Assembly (NCBI GenBank): GCA_009193035.1
Contig: SWDT01000023.1
Span: 1 to 64,000 of the forward strand
Length of the DNA stretch: 64,000 nucleotides
Source: Halicephalobus mephisto
Taxonomy: Eukaryota > Nematoda > Chromadorea > Rhabditida > Panagrolaimidae
Direction of reading: 5' to 3'
Positions 25,401 through 57,600 of this stretch are shown here, in pieces (position 1 is the first letter of the stretch; each line of letters opens with the position of its first letter). The notes under the pieces were generated by a model, which was not told the origin of the DNA, did not search any database, and saw only the letters and a list, made by a program, of their open reading frames with translations. Position numbers and translations under genes: made by a program.

Positions 25401-27061
25401 TGGCGATATTCCGCTTCCAGATGAAGCTTATGATCCTCTCCGTGACGTCATTTCTGAACACGTTCAAAAAGCACTTCAAACGGCCACAGTTGCAGCTGTC
25501 CAAAGACCAAACTCAAAATCCGAGTTTCATTCCCCCAGATTCTCGAACGATTACACTCCTCAGGTTAGAACTACTTCTTTACTTCCTAATGGAGCTAAAT
25601 ATGATGACGTCACTCACTACAAAATGGGACCGCCTCCACATATCAGCATGGACGCCCTCTCTCCTGAGACCAGACAGCGCCACGAGTTCATCAACAGCAC
25701 CATAGCTTCTGCTTTGGCTCATCCGCATGAGGGACTTGAAGACAGTGGTCATAATAATCAGAATCCGGCTCCATTGATTCCGATGGATTCTCGGGTTACT
25801 GATCTTTTACAATTGAATCAACTTCAGAAAAACGAATCTCCCAAGAAACCGCTTCAGTTAAATGCCATAGAATTGAAGGAATTAGATGCTGTTAGAAACG
25901 CCTTCACTTGCATGGAAGAACCTCTTCAAGATCCAGAAGCAGCGAGAAACCTCATGAAGAAAGAACACACGCCTGCTGACATCTTGAACATCATGGACGT
26001 CACCATCAGAAGAATCGTCAGAACGGCCAAGAAACTCAGTCATTTCCAGGAGATCAGCAACGACGGGAAACTTCAGCTTCTTAGATGTAAGTTTTTTAAA
26101 CATATTGTGATTTAAAAAACCGATATATGAACGTTTGGAATTTTCGAATTCCCGCGCAAGAGCGAGTATAAAAGTGGTAAATTTGGTAACTTGTTTCGGA
26201 AACTAACGCGCTCTGTCCACTCTCTCGCTTTTTTTGTTTTTTCGTAACAATCCTAAAATTTTGTCTTGAATGGTTTTATATAAATTTCTACTTTTAATAT
26301 TCACAATAATATGATATTTTTCAATCTCTGTACGAAATAGGTAAGCTTTATAAAACTAAAAATGGCAAATCTGTCGATTCACCACCGAAATTTTCTTTCC
26401 TTATATTTCTAAAAATTTTTGAGATAATTTTGTAATTTTTACCATGAAGTTATTGATATAATGTTTTTTAGCATCGATGATCGACATGCTGACGATCAGA
26501 GAGGTCTCCTTGCTGGACGAGAAGATGGAAGCTTGGAAAACTCAGATTCTGGGAGACGGCCAACAAGCTTCTATTTCGTGCAACATATTCAACCAACTCT
26601 GCAATGCCGAACAGAGAACTAAATTCATGGAGTTCTGCAAAACTATCAGCCCGACTTTGAGGAGCAACAGAGTGGCCCTCATGTTGGTCGCCTTAGTCAT
26701 CTTGTTCGACAATTCTCGAGCGAGGAATCTGTGTGATTCTGACCAAGAAATTGTCAGACGATATCACGAGCTCTACTATCATCTTCTTCAAAGGTAATTT
26801 TCAATTTTTTTAAATTTATATAATTATTTTTCCAGATATGTGGAGTCGGTGTATGAAGAGGCAGCCCCGGAGATGATCAAGACGATCCCACTTGCCCTCC
26901 GACGACTGGCCAAGATCACCGAAGGCTCGGCCGTTCTTTTCATGGATAAAGTCGACTCCAAAAACGTTGCTAAACTTCCCTCAGAGTTCTTCAAACTCGA
27001 ATCAGGCCGACCAAAATCAGATCCTCAAATCAAAAACGAGTTCGAAGACTCCAACCCCTGA
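7468..27061 (+). CDS. daf-12: DAF-12 nuclear hormone receptor orthologue
   Basis: Ligand-activated transcription factor; in C. elegans DAF-12 binds dafachronic acids and controls dauer entry, developmental timing and lifespan. Exons, all phase-compatible: 7468-7624, 13940-14610, 23147-23299, 23537-23663, 23858-24051, 24667-26086, 26472-26793, 26836-27061; predicted 1,089 residues, longer than the C. elegans protein (about 750). A conserved MNTPDDPVIHSPPS block lies just before the DNA-binding domain. The two-zinc-finger domain (residues about 403-475) has P-box CESCKA and CRLKKCFEVGMKKEWILNEE. The ligand-binding domain (about 860-1085) starts near LNAIELKELDAVRNAF and HTPADILNIMDVTIRR and ends with the AF-2-like LPSEFFKL. 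Exon 1 follows an AG at 7458-7459 and may be a trans-splice site. Membership of exons 1-2 rests on splice phase and proline-rich character. Introns 1 and 2 (6.3 and 8.5 kb) are packed with repeats. The inter-finger linker has one extra residue. Confidence 0.9.
8868..9098. repeat. GC-richer hairpin minisatellite
   Basis: In daf-12 intron 1. Units of about 45-60 bp contain GGTCGAACGGCTGGCATTA, GAGGAACACCGTTCG and GAGACGCACTGTTCGTCC. CGAACGG and CCGTTCG within a unit are complementary, so single units can fold. About five copies, much richer in G+C than the flanks. Confidence 0.8.
9131..9606. mobile_element. Foldback element, long inverted repeats
   Basis: The left arm (about 9131-9315) and right arm (about 9400-9606) are imperfect inverted copies. 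AATCGAGCACTCCAATGGACC on the left matches GGTCCGTTGGAATGCTCGATT on the right. GCTGACACAAGTGGGAATTC and ATGGATTTGATGCAAT recur in inverted form. The spacer is about 85 bp. No transposase frame is present, so this is a non-autonomous element inside daf-12 intron 1. Confidence 0.8.
10500..12600. repeat. Degenerate tandem repeat, about 110 bp unit
   Basis: In daf-12 intron 1. The unit carries TTTCTGAATTTTTTTATAAA, then TGTTCAAAATTCTGGAAGAT, then TTTATTAAATTAATAAAGAT. Two runs, about 10540-10850 and 11870-12260, are separated by unrelated A+T sequence. Further TTCTGGAAG/ATTCTAGAA phrases fill the remainder. Confidence 0.75.
13270..13640. repeat. Tandem repeat with GGATAGTGTCTAAA core
   Basis: Just upstream of daf-12 exon 2. 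TTTGGATAGTGTCTAAAA occurs about six times, usually followed by AGTCCGAAAAATTTAATTTT. Unit length alternates between roughly 45 and 70 bp. Confidence 0.85.
15010..15440. repeat. Tandem repeat, about 60 bp unit
   Basis: CAGAATCCAGAAGAAGATTT, then CGAAATTTTAAATCTCATAG, then AAGTTTGTAAAAATCT repeats about four times at the 3' side, with diverged copies upstream. Confidence 0.85.
15830..16430. repeat. Repeat rich in ATATCGATACATT palindromes
   Basis: About 75-150 bp higher-order unit containing TATATCGATACATTGAGCTG, ATACCGGTGCACTATATTTA and TATTAAAACTGCTCTGATGT. TATCGATA and GTATCGATAC are perfect palindromes repeated through the block. Confidence 0.8.
17181..17870. mobile_element. 690-bp inverted-repeat element with tandem hairpin core
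   Basis: Begins CACAGGTAATTTGCAATTAC and ends GTAATCACAAATTACCTGTG, its near-perfect inverse. The inverted match continues inward through TAATTAACGTGTAAGAACCC and CTGAGTACAATCGATGGTAG. The interior is three tandem copies of about 185 bp, each itself an imperfect palindrome (TCGATCCTAATTGAGCATAA against CGCTCAATTAGGATCAAC). No coding capacity, so non-autonomous. Confidence 0.8.
19620..19925. repeat. Tandem repeat, AAAATTAAAAAACTCGATTT
   Basis: Three larger units contain AACTCGATTTCGAACTGAAT followed by a T run and AATAAAAAAAT. Between them are short copies of TTCGAATCTAAAAATTAAAA. Confidence 0.75.
20090..20470. repeat. Degenerate AAAATTTAAAATCGAAAATT repeat
   Basis: Several copies of a roughly 130-bp unit containing GAAAAGTTTGAATTAAAATT, GAAATTTTGAAAATTTAAAA and TCGAAAATTTCG. 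Non-coding. Confidence 0.7.
21530..21900. repeat. Three 110-120 bp repeats with CG-rich cores
   Basis: Each copy carries CATTGGCGCGTTTTTGGCGT, then TATTCCAATTGACAATTTTC, then GCGGGAAATTTGAAAATTAA. A partial fourth copy ends with TTTCCGCGGGAAATTTAAAA. The GGCGCG and GCGGGAAA cores stand out in an A+T background. Confidence 0.85.
22455..22860. repeat. 35-bp satellite open in all three frames
   Basis: Eleven full copies plus partial ends. The unit is AAAGATTCGAATTTGGCATT followed by CGTTCTGTTTTCACC, exactly 35 bp. Because 35 is not a multiple of 3 and the unit has no stop codon in the plus direction, all three plus frames stay open and read the same 35-residue peptide in shifted register. This explains the three overlapping open frames here; none is a gene. 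Confidence 0.9.
24052..24666. other. daf-12 intron 5 with degenerate repeat
   Basis: This intron lies inside the DNA-binding-domain coding region, between the two zinc fingers. It contains two diverged copies of a roughly 130-bp unit with GGATTCTGAAGAAGTTTCAG, GGTTTTTGGAAAGATTGTA and GAATATTCTGGAAGATTCTG. Confidence 0.7.
26087..26370 (+). mobile_element. Introner-like element copy 1, daf-12 intron 6
   Basis: These 284 bp begin at the GTAAGT donor of daf-12 intron 6 and end inside the intron at TAAAAATGGCAAAT. They match 37046-37329 on the minus strand over the same length, with about five mismatches by eye and no gaps. The copy includes TTCCCGCGCAAGAGCGAG, a TATAAAAG motif and an internal donor-like AATAGGTAAGC. 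The 101 bp from 26371 to the acceptor at 26471 are not shared. The similarity starts at the exon-intron boundary: the upstream exon sequences (CTTCTTAGAT and CAAGCTATGGA) are unrelated. Confidence 0.85.
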
Positions 27062-36100: not shown

Positions 36101-39100
36101 TTATTTTTTTTCGGGCGTAATCAACGGAGTTTGAGAAGAAATAAGATTTGCAGAAGCACCAGTACTGCTCATGCTTGATTTCGATCTTTCGTGTTTCGGC
36201 AAAGTATTAGAATCAGATCCACTGTTATCCGGATCTGGTTCTGGTTCTTCTTTCACTGATGGTGGGACATCTATTTGAACACCAGACAACGAAAAATTAT
36301 CGTTCATTCTTGGCGGAAAAAGTCCTGAATCTTCTTGAATTCCATCGATATGTTTTGGGATATCCTCCAATTCATCCACATTTTCGCAACTTTGTGGACT
36401 TGAAGCTCTGGATACTTTCATCGTCGAAACCCTGCTTCTCGTCGACTGCAAAGCCGGGATGCTGAATTGTCGATATACCGTACCTGGAGGTGGACTTCTT
36501 GTGACATTGTTTTTCCTGACACTACATCTGCTGCTATTGATCGAAAATTTGCTTCCAAATTTCGAAAACAACGTTGATCTTGAAAATCCTTGCATTAATC
36601 CTCCCAATCTTTTCTTTTTTCTTTTTTCATCGGCTTGTCTTGATCCGTTACTTCTCAAATCATCATCAATATCCACTGAAGAATTAGACTGAGATGTGAC
36701 GGAAATATTATCTCCAGATTCCGACAATTTGGCTTTTTTAATGTTCCTCGACCTGATAGAAGCGCTTCCAACAGAAAGCTTCGAAGAATTTCCAATTTGA
36801 GTCTCTTCATCGATCGGCTCCATCGGCTCAGGAAGATCCCATTCTGCTTGTCTCTCAGAAATGCTGTAAAAAAATAAATATTAATATTGCGGAAATAAAA
36901 CAAAAAATATTGTAAAAATTGAAAATTATTAATGAGACTATTGTAAAAATTAAAACTAAAACCTTTCAGAAATTACCTTAAGATGCATTTTTAAGGAAAT
37001 TCTAAACTTTAGGTAAAAAAACGAATAAATTTTGTTAATTGTCAAATTTGCCATTTTTAGTTTTATAAAGCTTACCTATTTTGTACAGAGATTGAAAAAT
37101 ATCATATTATTGTGAATATTAAAAGTAGAAATTTATATAAAACCATTCAAGACAAAATTTTAGGATTGTTACGAAAAAACAGAAAAAGCGAGAGAGTGGA
37201 CAGAGCGTGTTATTTCCCGAAACAAGTTACCAAATTTACCACTTTTATACTCGCTCTTGCGCGGGAATTCGAAAATTCCAAACGTTCATATATCGGTTTT
37301 TTAAATCACAATATGTTTAAAAAACTTACTCCATAGCTTGAGTAGAGCCAAAGTAGGGAACTCCTCTGAAATTTGCAGCCGCTTGAGTGTAGGGAATCTC
37401 TGGTTCGACGTTGTCCCAGAAGGCGTCTTTCGTCAACTTCGGATTGCCCTTGTACATCCTATCAACGATCAAATACCCCACTTGCAGATTTCTGTCCAGA
37501 ACCCAATTAACTTCAAAATCATCGTCATCTTTGCCGAAGGGACAAATCATTGCTTCTGCCACTTTCAGCCATCCAACGTAGAAAAAAAATTGAAAAATAG
37601 TAAAAAATGGAACATAATAATCAATGTCGTTAACCGGAGCAGAAGGACCGGAAGGTTGTTGAACTTTGTTGTAGAGATACTGACGTCCAAAAAGACAAGC
37701 AACAAAGAAACTGTAAACCGCAATCGTTACCACTTGAGTGTACACCAACGGAACACTGAAAACAACCATAAGATTTCGAAATTAATATAAAAAATCCAAA
37801 ATTCATATATAAATCCCGAAAATCAAAATAGAAATTCTAAAAATCAATGTGAAAAGTTTTAAAATTAATATAAACAATTTAAATTCTGATAAACTTTAAA
37901 ATTTCAAAAATTGATACAAAAAATTTGGAATTTGATAAATAAACTTCAAAAATCTGTAATAAAATTTAGAAATTTATGTAAAAAATTGAAATTTGATATA
38001 TGAATTTAGAAATTGATATATGAATTTTCTACAATTTAGATTTTTACATTTTTCTAATTTACTATGTGAAAATTTAAAATTCGATATATAAACTTTTGAA
38101 ATTATGTAAAAAAATGAAATTTGATATATGAATTTAGAAATTGATATATGAATTTCCTACAATTTAGTAAATTAGAAAAATGTAAAAATCTATATAAAAA
38201 TTTAAAATTCGATATATAAACTTCTGAAATTATGCAAAAAGCTTATCAAATTTCGGTTTTTTATATAATTTCTACATGAAGTTACATGAAAAATTAAAAA
38301 CTAACCTTATCCAATCGTAAGACCACACAGTTCCACATTGACTTCTGAATTCCAGCATTTCATCAATCAAGGACTTCAGATGGAGATCGTCGTGGATTCT
38401 CCCTTCTTTCCTCGCCAACATCGCCAATTGACCGAACCATTGAGCAGGAACCCACCAGATTCCGTGGGGCGTCTCCACGTGTTCTAATTCTTCTTTTTCT
38501 TCTGGAGTCAATATCCCAGCTTCAACCAAATGATCTATTGTTGGAAATCTTGCTTTAATTACTGTAGAAGTATATTGAAATGTTAAAACAAAAATTTGAT
38601 TGACATATCGAACGAGAGCTCTCCTGATCATGCGTCCTCTTTCGTCCGCTCCTTGGACGTACGCCGAAATCTGGATTGCCAGTCTGTCCGGCCACGGAAG
38701 GGCCAAGTACTGGTTCCACCAACGACCAACGATGAAAGTCACGTAAAATCCGAGGACAAACGTGATCGGAACGACAGATGTGAATTCTTGACAATAAGTT
38801 GCTATTGTTTCAAATTGTCTGAAATTAATTTTTTACAATTATATAAATTTTCTAAAAAAATACATTTTTTAATTAAAAAAAATTAAAAATTTCCATAAAA
38901 TTCTCAAAAAACAAAAAATTTTAGAAAATTTTAAATTTTAAAAATTTTAAAAATTCTAAATTTTACGAAATTTTAAATTTTAAAAATTTTAAAAATTCTA
39001 AATTTTACGAAATTTTAAATTTTGGAAATTTTGAAAAATTTTAGAAAATTTTAAATTTTAGAAACTTTTAAAAATTTTAAGAAATTTTAAATTTTAGAAA

Positions 39101-44409: not shown

Positions 44410-44720
44410 CTGCGTGATTTTAATTTTTTCTAAATACTTAAAATTATTCATTTTTATATAAATTATTTTCAAAATTCTTATTATTTCAAATTTATTTCTT
44501 TAAATACTTAAAATTATTCATTTTTATATAAATTATTTTCAAAATTCTTATTATTTTAAATTTATTTTTTCTAAATAGTTAAAATTATTCATTTTTATAT
44601 AAATTGTTTTTAAAATTCTTATTATTTTAAATTAATTTTTTTAAATACTTAAAATTATTCATTTTTATATAAATTGTTTTCAAAATTCTTATTATTTTAA
44701 ACAGTTAAAATTATTTTTAA
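44410..44720. repeat. Tandem repeat, about 69 bp unit, four copies
   Basis: Four near-identical copies of CTAAATACTTAAAATTATTC, ATTTTTATATAAATTATTTT, CAAAATTCTTATTATTT and a short A+T tail. Confidence 0.9.
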
Positions 44721-45498
44721 AATTTCATTTTCAACTTTTATTTTCAAGGATAGTGGTTATTTTTTAAATTAAATTTTTTTATTAAAAATTTCTAAAATTC
44801 CAAAATTTTCTATAAAATCCTAAAAATTCGTGTCGAGATGATTTCGTAATAAATTTGGTTTTTGATTTGTGTAAAAATATGACTTTAGAATTAATTCTTG
44901 AAATCGAAATTTATGGATTTTTCTAGACATGTCTGATAATTCGTGTCGAGACGATTTCGCAACATCTTTTATTTTTTACTTTTAAGACTGTCTGATTTTG
45001 AAACTGATGTTTAAAAACGAAAATTTTTAAAACTTTTAAAATTCACATTAAGATTGTTTAAAAATAATTTTAATTTCTATAATATTATTCTAAATTTTAA
45101 AATTCGGAAAATTCGTGTCGAAACAAATTTTAATTTTTTACAGTAATTTAAAAATTTTAAATTCACGTTTGGAAATAATTTTGAATTTTTACATTACTTT
45201 TATTTTCCATTGTCAATAGTTGTTATAATGCACGTTCATTCCGAAATTCTAGGAATGGTCTCATGATGTTTTTGTACAAAAGACTCAGATTGTCTTAATG
45301 GCGCCCTGGCAGCTTATCAACAAATTTTTTCTCTTATTCCTAAAAAATGAAAAAAACTTTTTTCTGGATTTCCGGAATCTCTGTCCAAAAATTCAAAAAT
45401 GTTTACTTTGGGTTAATTCATTTCCTGAAACCCACGGATTCATCATTTTTTGAATGACAAGGTTCAACAGCGACTTTGTGTCCAGAAACTGCTTTCCT

Positions 45499-54600: not shown

Positions 54601-57600
54601 AGGAGATCTGAATTCTGACAAAACTCCCGTCATGACGAGGGTTTTTTCTTCTCTCGGAAAACAATACAGTAAGAACGATGTTGAATCTGCCTCTCAAGCA
54701 GCCGATTTCGAAGCTAACAACATGAAAGTAAAAAAATCAGGAACGATTTCGAAACGAATTGTGAATTTGACTCAGAGAAAAAAATTTAAAAATGAAAATT
54801 CTACAGTAAACGGAGATTTTGAAGGAACCGAAACGAACTCCCTACATTCCAACGGACTTCTGGAGAGCCGACCGACGACGAGTCTGGACAAGTTGCACTT
54901 CATCATCGGCCACGGGATCCTGAGGCCGGCCTTGAGGGACGAGATATACTGTCAGATTTGCAAACAATTAGTAAACAATCCATCGAAAAACAGTGCTGCC
55001 AGAGGCTGGATTTTACTTTCACTTTGTGTTGGATGTTTTGCTCCTTCTGAGAGATTTATCAAATATCTTTATTGCTTTATCAGAGAACAAGGTCCTCGAG
55101 GATCTACGAAATATGCAAATTATATAGAACATAGACTTCGAAGAACGGTCCAAAACGGGACCAGACATCAGCCTCCGAGCTACATCGAACTCCAGGCCAC
55201 GAAATCCAAAAAACCGCTGGTGTTGGCCGTGACTTTCATGGACGGGACAGTCAAGACCCTAAATGCGGATTCTGCCACGACTGCCAGAGAACTATGTACT
55301 CTTTTGAGCGAAAAAATAGGTTTAACAGAAAGTTTTGGATTTTCTCTCTACATAGCCCTGTTCGACAAGGTCTCGTCCTTGGGATCAGGGAACGATCACG
55401 TCATGGACGCTGTTTCGCAATGTGAACAGTACGCCAAGGAACAAGGCAGACAAGAAAGAAACGCCCCTTGGAGACTGTTCTTCAGGAAAGAAATCTTCAC
55501 TCCATGGCATAATCCCAAATCCGATCTCGTCAGCACTAATCTTATTTATCAACAAGTGATCCGAGGAGTGAAGTACGGAGAATACAGATGCGACAGAGAA
55601 GAGGATTTAACACTTCTGGCAGCTCAGCAATTTTTCGTGGATCAAAAAGGACCAGAATTGGAAATCGAAAAATTGGAATCTGCTCTTCCGAATTACTTAC
55701 CGGATTTTGAATTAACAAAAAAAGGAAAATCAACTCTAGAAAAATGGCTACAATCAGTAATGCATGTTTTTAGAAAAAAATTCACAACTGGAAAACGGCA
55801 TACTGTAGAATCCGTCAAAGAAGATTTAGTAACTTTTGCACAATACAAATGGCCGTTGTTGTTTTCTAGATTTTACGAAGCTTATAAGTTTGCCGGACCT
55901 CCGTTGCCGAAAAACGAAGTCATCGTGGCCGTCAACTTCACTGGAATCTACGTCGTCGACGATCAAGAACAAGTTTTAGTCGAATTTAGTTTTCCAGAAG
56001 TCAGTGGAATAACTTGTTCGACTTCAAAAAGACTTGGAACAGATACATTTACAATTCAGACGGTTTCTGGAGACGAATATACGTTCCAAAGTCCGAATTC
56101 AGAAGACATAAAAGAACTTGTGATTTATTTTTTGACTGGATTAAAAGAAAGATCTCGTTATGCTATAGCGATTCAAGATCAAAAACTCGACGACAAAACT
56201 ACTTATCTGGAATGCAAAAAAGGAGACTTGCTGATCCTCGCTGAAGCGTTCGGTCAAGCCACTCAGTTCGTCAAAGCAGAAAACACCAGGACCGGTCTTC
56301 ACGGGAACGTCGCCGTCGAAGGCATCTATGTCTTGCCGACGATGAACAGGCCAAATACTGAGATTCTGGAGTTCTTCAACAAACCGACAGACATGGCTCA
56401 ATTCCGACCCGAAAAAGGACTAAGTATGCTGGTTCCGAATCCCAATGCAGATCGACCGTATACTTTGGAAAAATTCGCAATTGATAATTTTAGAAGTGTT
56501 TCTAAAAGAAGTCTCTCATCCAGTGGCTCCAGAAGATCTCACGAACTTTGGAAGCACTCTAGAGAACCCATCAGACAGCCCTTATTGAAGAAATTAGAAG
56601 CCAAAGTTGAGCCATGTAACGACGCCGTGGCTTCGTACTTGGCGATTATGAAATACATGGGAGACCATCCGACAAAACGACCGCGACATCCGGTAGAACT
56701 GACTGATCTCATATTCCGGGCCCCTTTGAAATATGAAGTCCTCAGAGACGAAACTTACTGTCAGTTGATGAAACAGTTGACGGACAACCCTAACATATAC
56801 AGTGAAGAAAGAGGATGGGAACTTATGTGGCTTTGTATCGGTCTTTTTCCTCCTTCGAAGTCCCTATACAAAGAAGTCAATCAATTTTTGAAAACTAGAA
56901 TGATTCCAATCGCCGCAGATTGCATGAACAGACTTCAGAAAACCCTCAAGGCCGGTCAGAGGAAATACCCTCCTCATCACGTCGAAGTGGAAGCTATTCA
57001 ACATAAAACAACACAGATATTCCACAAAACATTCTTCCCCGACGGATCTAACGAAGCAATCGAAGTCGAGAGCTCAACCAGAGCCAAGGACTTCTGCAAC
57101 AGAATCGCCAATCGGTTAGGTCTCTACAGTGCTGATGGATTCAGTTTATTCGTCAAAATAGGCGAAAAAGGCAAGTTCAACATTTAGAAATTTAAATTAA
57201 AACTTATAATTGGAAAAATATTTTCTTTTAAATTCCCGCGCAAAAGTAAAAAAATTGTAATTTCTTAACACCGTACAAATCAACTACTTTCATAAATTTT
57301 AGAAGTTTTTAAAAATTCGTAATAAAATTTTTACAAAAATCTTTGTAATTTTTGAATTTCCCGCGCAAAGCGAGAGAGAACTTCAAAAGTAAAAAACGAC
57401 GATTCTGAGAACTTGTTCTGTTCCATAATAATCCTAAAATTTTCCAAAAATCTCCATTTTTACAATAATGAATTAATTTCAGTAATCAGTATGCCTGAAA
57501 ACGAATTCTTCTTCGATTTTGTTCATCAGCTGACTGATTGGGTCAGACAAAACCGACCGACAAAAGATCCTGGAGCCGCGCTTTTCGCTTACCAAATCTT

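Follow-up and report, generated by a model that had tools for sequence, protein, structure and literature searches.

How do the introns of two unrelated neighbouring genes come to begin with nearly the same sequence? The question arises in a window of 64,000 nucleotides of Halicephalobus mephisto DNA (the whole stretch analysed; contig SWDT01000023.1, our C229), where one copy of a 284-bp block occupies positions 26087–26370 on the plus strand and the other positions 37329–37046 on the minus strand. All 284 positions align without a gap and with five mismatches (98.2% identity), at offsets 113, 116, 121, 147 and 247, which makes exact the count of about five given by eye in the original prediction. 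The alignment also agrees that similarity begins in both introns at the G of GTAAGT and ends within the intron, and that the exons upstream of the two copies do not match each other; together with the gene models, it confirms that both copies are sense relative to their host genes, which lie on opposite strands. Past 26370 and 37046 the similarity fades, a BLAST extension to 26382 and 37034 bringing the count to nine mismatches over 296 bp. The pair scores 494 bits, against 181 bits for the runner-up among window pairs at least 1.5 kb apart, and this score, together with matches to a wider family, excludes chance or a two-copy similarity as an account of the block.

The two copies form the 5′ parts of introns called by a purpose-built gene finder, which was trained on the long open frames of the window and of the fetched loci and then refined on its own calls. 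It places the donors exactly at 26087 (plus strand) and 37329 (minus strand). The first predicted intron runs to 26471 (385 nt) and the second to 36864 (466 nt, phase 2, GS-TQAM-GA|C), and the spliced frames of both are open. Pfam finds zf-C4 and Hormone_recep domains in the first host gene, a nuclear hormone receptor that the original prediction called daf-12, and a Bestrophin domain in the second.

The block does not stand alone as a two-copy sequence; it is one pair inside a larger repeat family. Searching the 59.9-Mb assembly with the 284 bp returned no third near-identical copy, and 53 further matches of 68–93% identity among the 40 candidates scored out of 105. A 21-base core pattern, with one mismatch allowed, occurs 159 times in the assembly, and its reversed control 0 times. 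A profile search of 79 merged segments identified 198 copies that fall into 88 arrays of one to six copies each, 86 of them uniform in direction, with a median spacing between successive copies of 168.5 bp (66 spacings of 130–260 bp). The family is thus built of ~170-bp units in head-to-tail arrays; a full element consists of an AT-rich left end, one to six such units and an AT-rich right end. The left end often finishes in AAAAAACGATATATG, a recurrence judged by eye, and the core contains, internally, the imperfect inverted repeat AGAGCGAGT...ACTCGCTCT. The copies are strongly diverged, and no target-site duplications were resolved by eye. Because only 40 of the 1367 first-look candidates obtained with the 223-base family consensus were scored, the family is probably larger than listed here. 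In the window, the core of unit 1 starts 51 nt past the donor in both copies of the block (nhmmer; 26138–26232 on the plus strand and 37184–37278 on the minus strand), and a third, diverged family copy lies in sense orientation at 57346–57420 on the plus strand (nhmmer E=3.1e-5), within a predicted intron at 57144–57482.

Within the core, the blocks AATTTTTGAATTCCCGCGC, AAAATGGTAAATCTGGCA and CGACTCGC are 87–91% conserved, the two linkers 65–66% and the last segment 73%, as measured on 60 dereplicated copies, none matching either of the patterns used for collection, and with a profile search that itself favours conserved columns. For this last reason we do not take the uneven conservation as proof of function; the conserved blocks may be putative binding sites, by analogy with those of CERP2 and CELE2. 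A structured intronic RNA was likewise rejected, since compensatory changes do not rise above shuffles: the consensus folds, and its pairs lack covariation across 89 dereplicated copies, with 1545 of 2069 cells paired against a shuffled mean of 1536 (s.d. 8, maximum 1560) and 63 double changes against 60 (s.d. 7). Rfam gave no match within the window at gathering scores.

The original prediction took the 3′ parts of the two introns to be unrelated. Both instead run on as a diverged second unit, clearly in the bestrophin intron and weakly in the receptor intron. With a unit model built without any copy from the contig of the window, this second unit is found at 36935–37060 on the minus strand in the bestrophin intron (E=1.2e-14) and at 26355–26434 on the plus strand in the receptor intron (E=2.1e-6), and in each case the 284-bp identity stops inside it. 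The part past the break alone scores 25.5 bits in the bestrophin intron, equalled by 0 of 500 shuffles, and a weak 2.4 bits in the receptor intron, equalled by 1 of 500; with the start of the second unit included, the scores are 44 and 17 bits, respectively, and 0 of 500 shuffles equal either. The unit continues in register in both introns. As background, 2 of 860 non-coding pieces of the window reach 25.5 bits, both within 44682–44954. Each intron thus seems once to have contained two or more units, and the part made alike is limited to the first 284 bp.

The non-coding stretch 44682–44954 itself scores 25.6–33.7 bits with the unit model and may be a further decayed copy of the family.

The arrays lie mainly in introns. 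Sixty of the 88 fall in predicted introns, eight of which are truncated where the retrieved sequence ends, and the remaining 28 in non-coding calls, some of which may be intronic given flanks of at most 1.5 kb. Complete predicted introns hold 52 array entries, 40 sense and 12 antisense, one 2992-nt intron with an array in each direction being entered twice and the mixed-direction array C166 being counted as sense; the recurrence at many unrelated intron positions that marks introners is therefore present. Among introns shorter than 1100 nt the entries number 37 sense and 9 antisense, a bias with a binomial probability of 4e-5 that overstates independence, since local pairs are related. Gene-finder error was excluded as the source of antisense arrays in the phosphomannose isomerase, MeaB and ammonium transporter genes, whose Pfam domains lie on the predicted strand. 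The original prediction had proposed that copies mostly outside introns, in both orientations, would speak against it, and the outcome is mixed: the intronic majority and the sense bias agree with its expectation, whereas the 28 arrays outside predicted introns and the occurrence of both orientations do not.

In the sense entries, the array starts 34–82 nt past the donor in 28 of 37 and ends 62–118 nt before the acceptor in 26 of 37. These distances are mirrored in the antisense entries (78–101 nt from the donor in five of nine, with the end 41–65 nt from the acceptor in five of nine), indicating that, in either direction, the element tends to occupy most of the intron. In the 23 introns whose edges were compared, the AT-rich arms, which align loosely, were recognised above a 20-shuffle control 1–41 nt from the edge on the left (12 introns) and 3–48 nt from it on the right (15 introns). 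Where both arms exceed the control (8 of 23), 27–72 nt of intron are left outside the element, with a median of 32. If the element inserted into introns of the ordinary short kind, its nearness to splice sites would follow, with no attraction to donors needed. Among 113 predicted introns without arrays, 46 measure 35–60 nt (median 43.5) and 58 are longer than 100 nt. The element probably entered introns that were short and ordinary, although long element-free introns also exist.

Paralogs in the same genome allow the age of the bestrophin intron to be judged. Two of the six informative paralogs, C326 and C267, carry introns of 41 and 42 nt, without the element, at an identical position and phase (GS + four codons + two bases), so the bestrophin intron most likely predates the element within it. 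Three others (C60, C61 and C55) have no intron at that position, and C90 is ambiguous, with CT followed by GTGAGT, a possible donor one codon off, where the gene finder calls a stop codon; a seventh stretch, C289, missed the place. For the receptor gene, no paralog was found in the genome. Two element-bearing introns elsewhere are, in contrast, missing from most or all paralogous matches. That of a P-glycoprotein gene (C223:148398-148870, L006, RDASK^IVTES) is absent from 12 of 13 paralogous matches, ten of them without a stop, and that of a patched-like gene (C249:23202-23525, L004, STY^GVTHL) from four of four, and both are candidates for intron gain. We do not accept such absence as proof of gain: the bestrophin gene has two further introns, neither with a detected core, and its three best paralogs read through both. 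Turnover of intron positions is therefore high here, and absence from paralogs does not decide the matter. For a kinase gene (C315, 149 matches), several of the best paralogs lack the intron; its array lies 484 nt from the donor, and we conclude nothing from it.

The near identity of the 284-bp pair is one instance of a local pattern. The best match of an array lies on the same contig within 30 kb for 25 of the 88 arrays, compared with a mean of 0.67 and a maximum of 5 over 1000 permutations of location; ten loci were fetched partly for their nearness to other matches, so that more neighbours were sampled, and the permutation uses the same locations. Partners are thus nearer than chance, as conversion predicts. 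These 25 matches show 72–96% identity, 20 of them at least 80%, over distances of 0.6–11.6 kb. Among the 63 best matches that are not local, 61 show 61–73%. Where an array has a sampled neighbour within 30 kb (n = 41), that neighbour is its best match in 25 cases and is not in 16. The two remaining non-local best matches, at 99%, join C227:360013-360883 and C243:197765-198641, which are 98.5% identical over 879 bp up to the end of C227 and are probably one place assembled twice, as overlapping contigs or haplotypes.

We examined 15 local pairs with longer flanks, leaving out the C190 pair. They occur in direct and inverted orientation, with a best match of 107–504 bp per pair, and all printed matches lie wholly in predicted introns or non-coding DNA, none crossing a predicted exon, which excludes segmental duplication of genes. 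In the eight pairs laid out base by base, the tract ends within the arrays on at least one side. At C223:138472-138782 the array is a mosaic, in which unit 1 and the start of unit 2 resemble C223:140969 and unit 2 resembles C223:148510. In C111 and C221, the tract common to the pair has one boundary near the right end of the element. The predicted host proteins of the 284-bp pair and of the C5, C30 and C64 pairs differ by eye; in the C62 pair, both introns belong to a single gene. Five local best pairs have both arrays in sense introns, and the tract starts at the donor only in the 284-bp pair; in the C5, C30, C62 and C64 pairs, it starts 35–257 nt inside the introns.

We consider it likely that the 284-bp identity reflects ectopic gene conversion between two introns that already bore this old repeat, and not the birth of introns. 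The element would sit in introns in either orientation, stretching nearly from donor to acceptor, and its hosts would once have been ordinary short introns. Neighbouring arrays, direct or inverted and some 0.6–12 kb apart, would exchange sequence by ectopic gene conversion or equivalent repair copying, and in the present case one intron of the pair would recently have replaced 284 bp at the start of its partner with its own sequence. The tract would reach the donor because the exons share nothing and homology ends there, and it would stop in the second unit, where each intron would retain its own older sequence. The patchwork looked for in conversion, an identical tract with a diverged homologous side and unrelated flanks, is seen here, weakly for the receptor intron. 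From these patterns we infer conversion as the molecular process, its direction and the insertion of elements into short introns. The original prediction reasoned that a random insertion would not begin at the donor twice and that an introner was therefore indicated; that step does not follow, since homology between introns already holding a repeat can simply run out at the donor. Its other suggestion, transfer of a 5′ intron half, fits the evidence for copying that was recent, partial and confined to the intron. Against conversion it counts that local transposition or template switching would equally put similar copies nearby and that conversion between units only ~70% alike would be unusual. 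The weak continuation in the receptor intron, the absence of the bestrophin intron from three of six informative paralogs (one further being ambiguous) and the 16 of 41 arrays that do not match a sampled neighbour best also weigh against it.

A different account would make the element an introner, a mobile repeat that carries splice sites and makes introns as it inserts, so that the receptor and bestrophin introns would be two recent insertions. Arrays of either orientation that often reach across nearly the whole intron, close to both splice sites, are what such an element would leave, and the absence of the P-glycoprotein and patched-like introns from 12 of 13 and four of four paralogous matches points the same way. 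The bestrophin intron, however, exists without the element in two paralogs at an equal position and phase, so that the creation of an intron by insertion fails there, and with it this part of the original prediction. The 3′ parts of both introns are diverged family units and not recent copies, and the two core-free bestrophin introns are likewise absent from the three best paralogs. We therefore regard two recent introner insertions as decidedly improbable. There is some small chance of a mixed history, in which an old introner-like system still moves between neighbours, some introns (those of the P-glycoprotein and patched-like genes) are new and copying keeps the donor ends alike; if so, unrelated neighbouring genes in this genome would be exchanging intron sequence.

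Local transposition, in which a DNA transposon or rolling-circle element hops to nearby introns and tandem duplication and decay blur its ends, would account for close copies nearby in both orientations. The recurring left-end motif (by eye), the imperfect inverted repeat in the core and the C111 and C221 tracts with one side near the right end of the element are all consistent with it. The other shared tracts, however, end within arrays and not at element ends, and the 284-bp pair both includes about 16 nt from the start of the intron, which precede the left end of the element as placed by eye, and breaks in the middle of a unit, which makes such hops an improbable source of the pair. An RNA template, that is, an intron excised from one gene, reverse-transcribed and converted into the other, would give exactly the donor start and the sense orientation of both copies, and the family-wide sense bias of 37 to 9 in complete introns shorter than 1100 nt would fit as well. 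We think this route very unlikely, given that, of the five local best pairs in which both arrays are sense and intronic, a single one has a tract beginning at the donor, and that genes with clear domains, among them those for phosphomannose isomerase and MeaB, also carry antisense arrays.

Conversion between neighbouring introns has a close relative in Caenorhabditis. According to a review of interlocus gene conversion (PMC3966223), the frequency of conversion between C. elegans duplicates drops with distance over 1–8 kb, tracts can enter introns and both transcriptional orientations occur; the review adds that C. elegans partners may convert more readily when they share an orientation, and that distance had no effect in a human study. 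The exchange described here resembles that process, as reviewed there, in its scale of a few kilobases, in its two orientations and in the possible involvement of introns. It differs in that the Caenorhabditis cases concern gene paralogs, whereas here the homology is in introns and not exons, and the tracts extend no further than the splice site. Conversion by way of an intron repeat common to unrelated genes seems less usual, as does its frequency here. A text-based search of the literature turned up no published account of this repeat, nor of conversion between unrelated genes that is bounded by introns. Should the same locality extend across the genome, the arrays would provide a natural system for measuring ectopic conversion in an animal, in which rate could be related to distance and orientation free of gene paralogy and coding selection. 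They also show a route for sequence to pass between introns of unrelated neighbouring genes. In addition, near-identical 5′ intron ends in unrelated genes mimic intron birth, and conversion between repeats whose homology is bounded by exons can produce them.

Among mobile elements, the family shares with introners, as these are characterised in PMC9860276, a repeat present in many introns, a low GC content and a high copy number; some introner families show traits of DNA transposons in that account. Introners are defined there by the creation of new introns, which is contradicted here for the bestrophin intron; in the 23 introns examined, no element end was seen to fall on a splice site where an arm could be recognised. 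The CERP2 and CELE2 MITEs of Caenorhabditis, in the description of PMC9757741, are similarly short and numerous nematode repeats that contain inverted repeats and paired motifs. They are co-opted germline promoters, whereas the family here consists mostly of intronic arrays, a comparison made by description and not by sequence.

Part of the genome may hold a disproportionate share of the family. Contig C55, at 2.5 Mb the largest met, has 0 of the 59 exact matches to the core pattern, and C112 (1.1 Mb) and C241 (0.39 Mb) have six each. Within the window, the self-comparison is dominated by very numerous overlapping self-matches of tandem-array type, at positions 1–733 and in many other stretches. 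Finally, both copies of the 284-bp block contain an additional donor-like site, GGTAAGC, approximately 254 nt into the intron (26340–26346 and 37070–37076).
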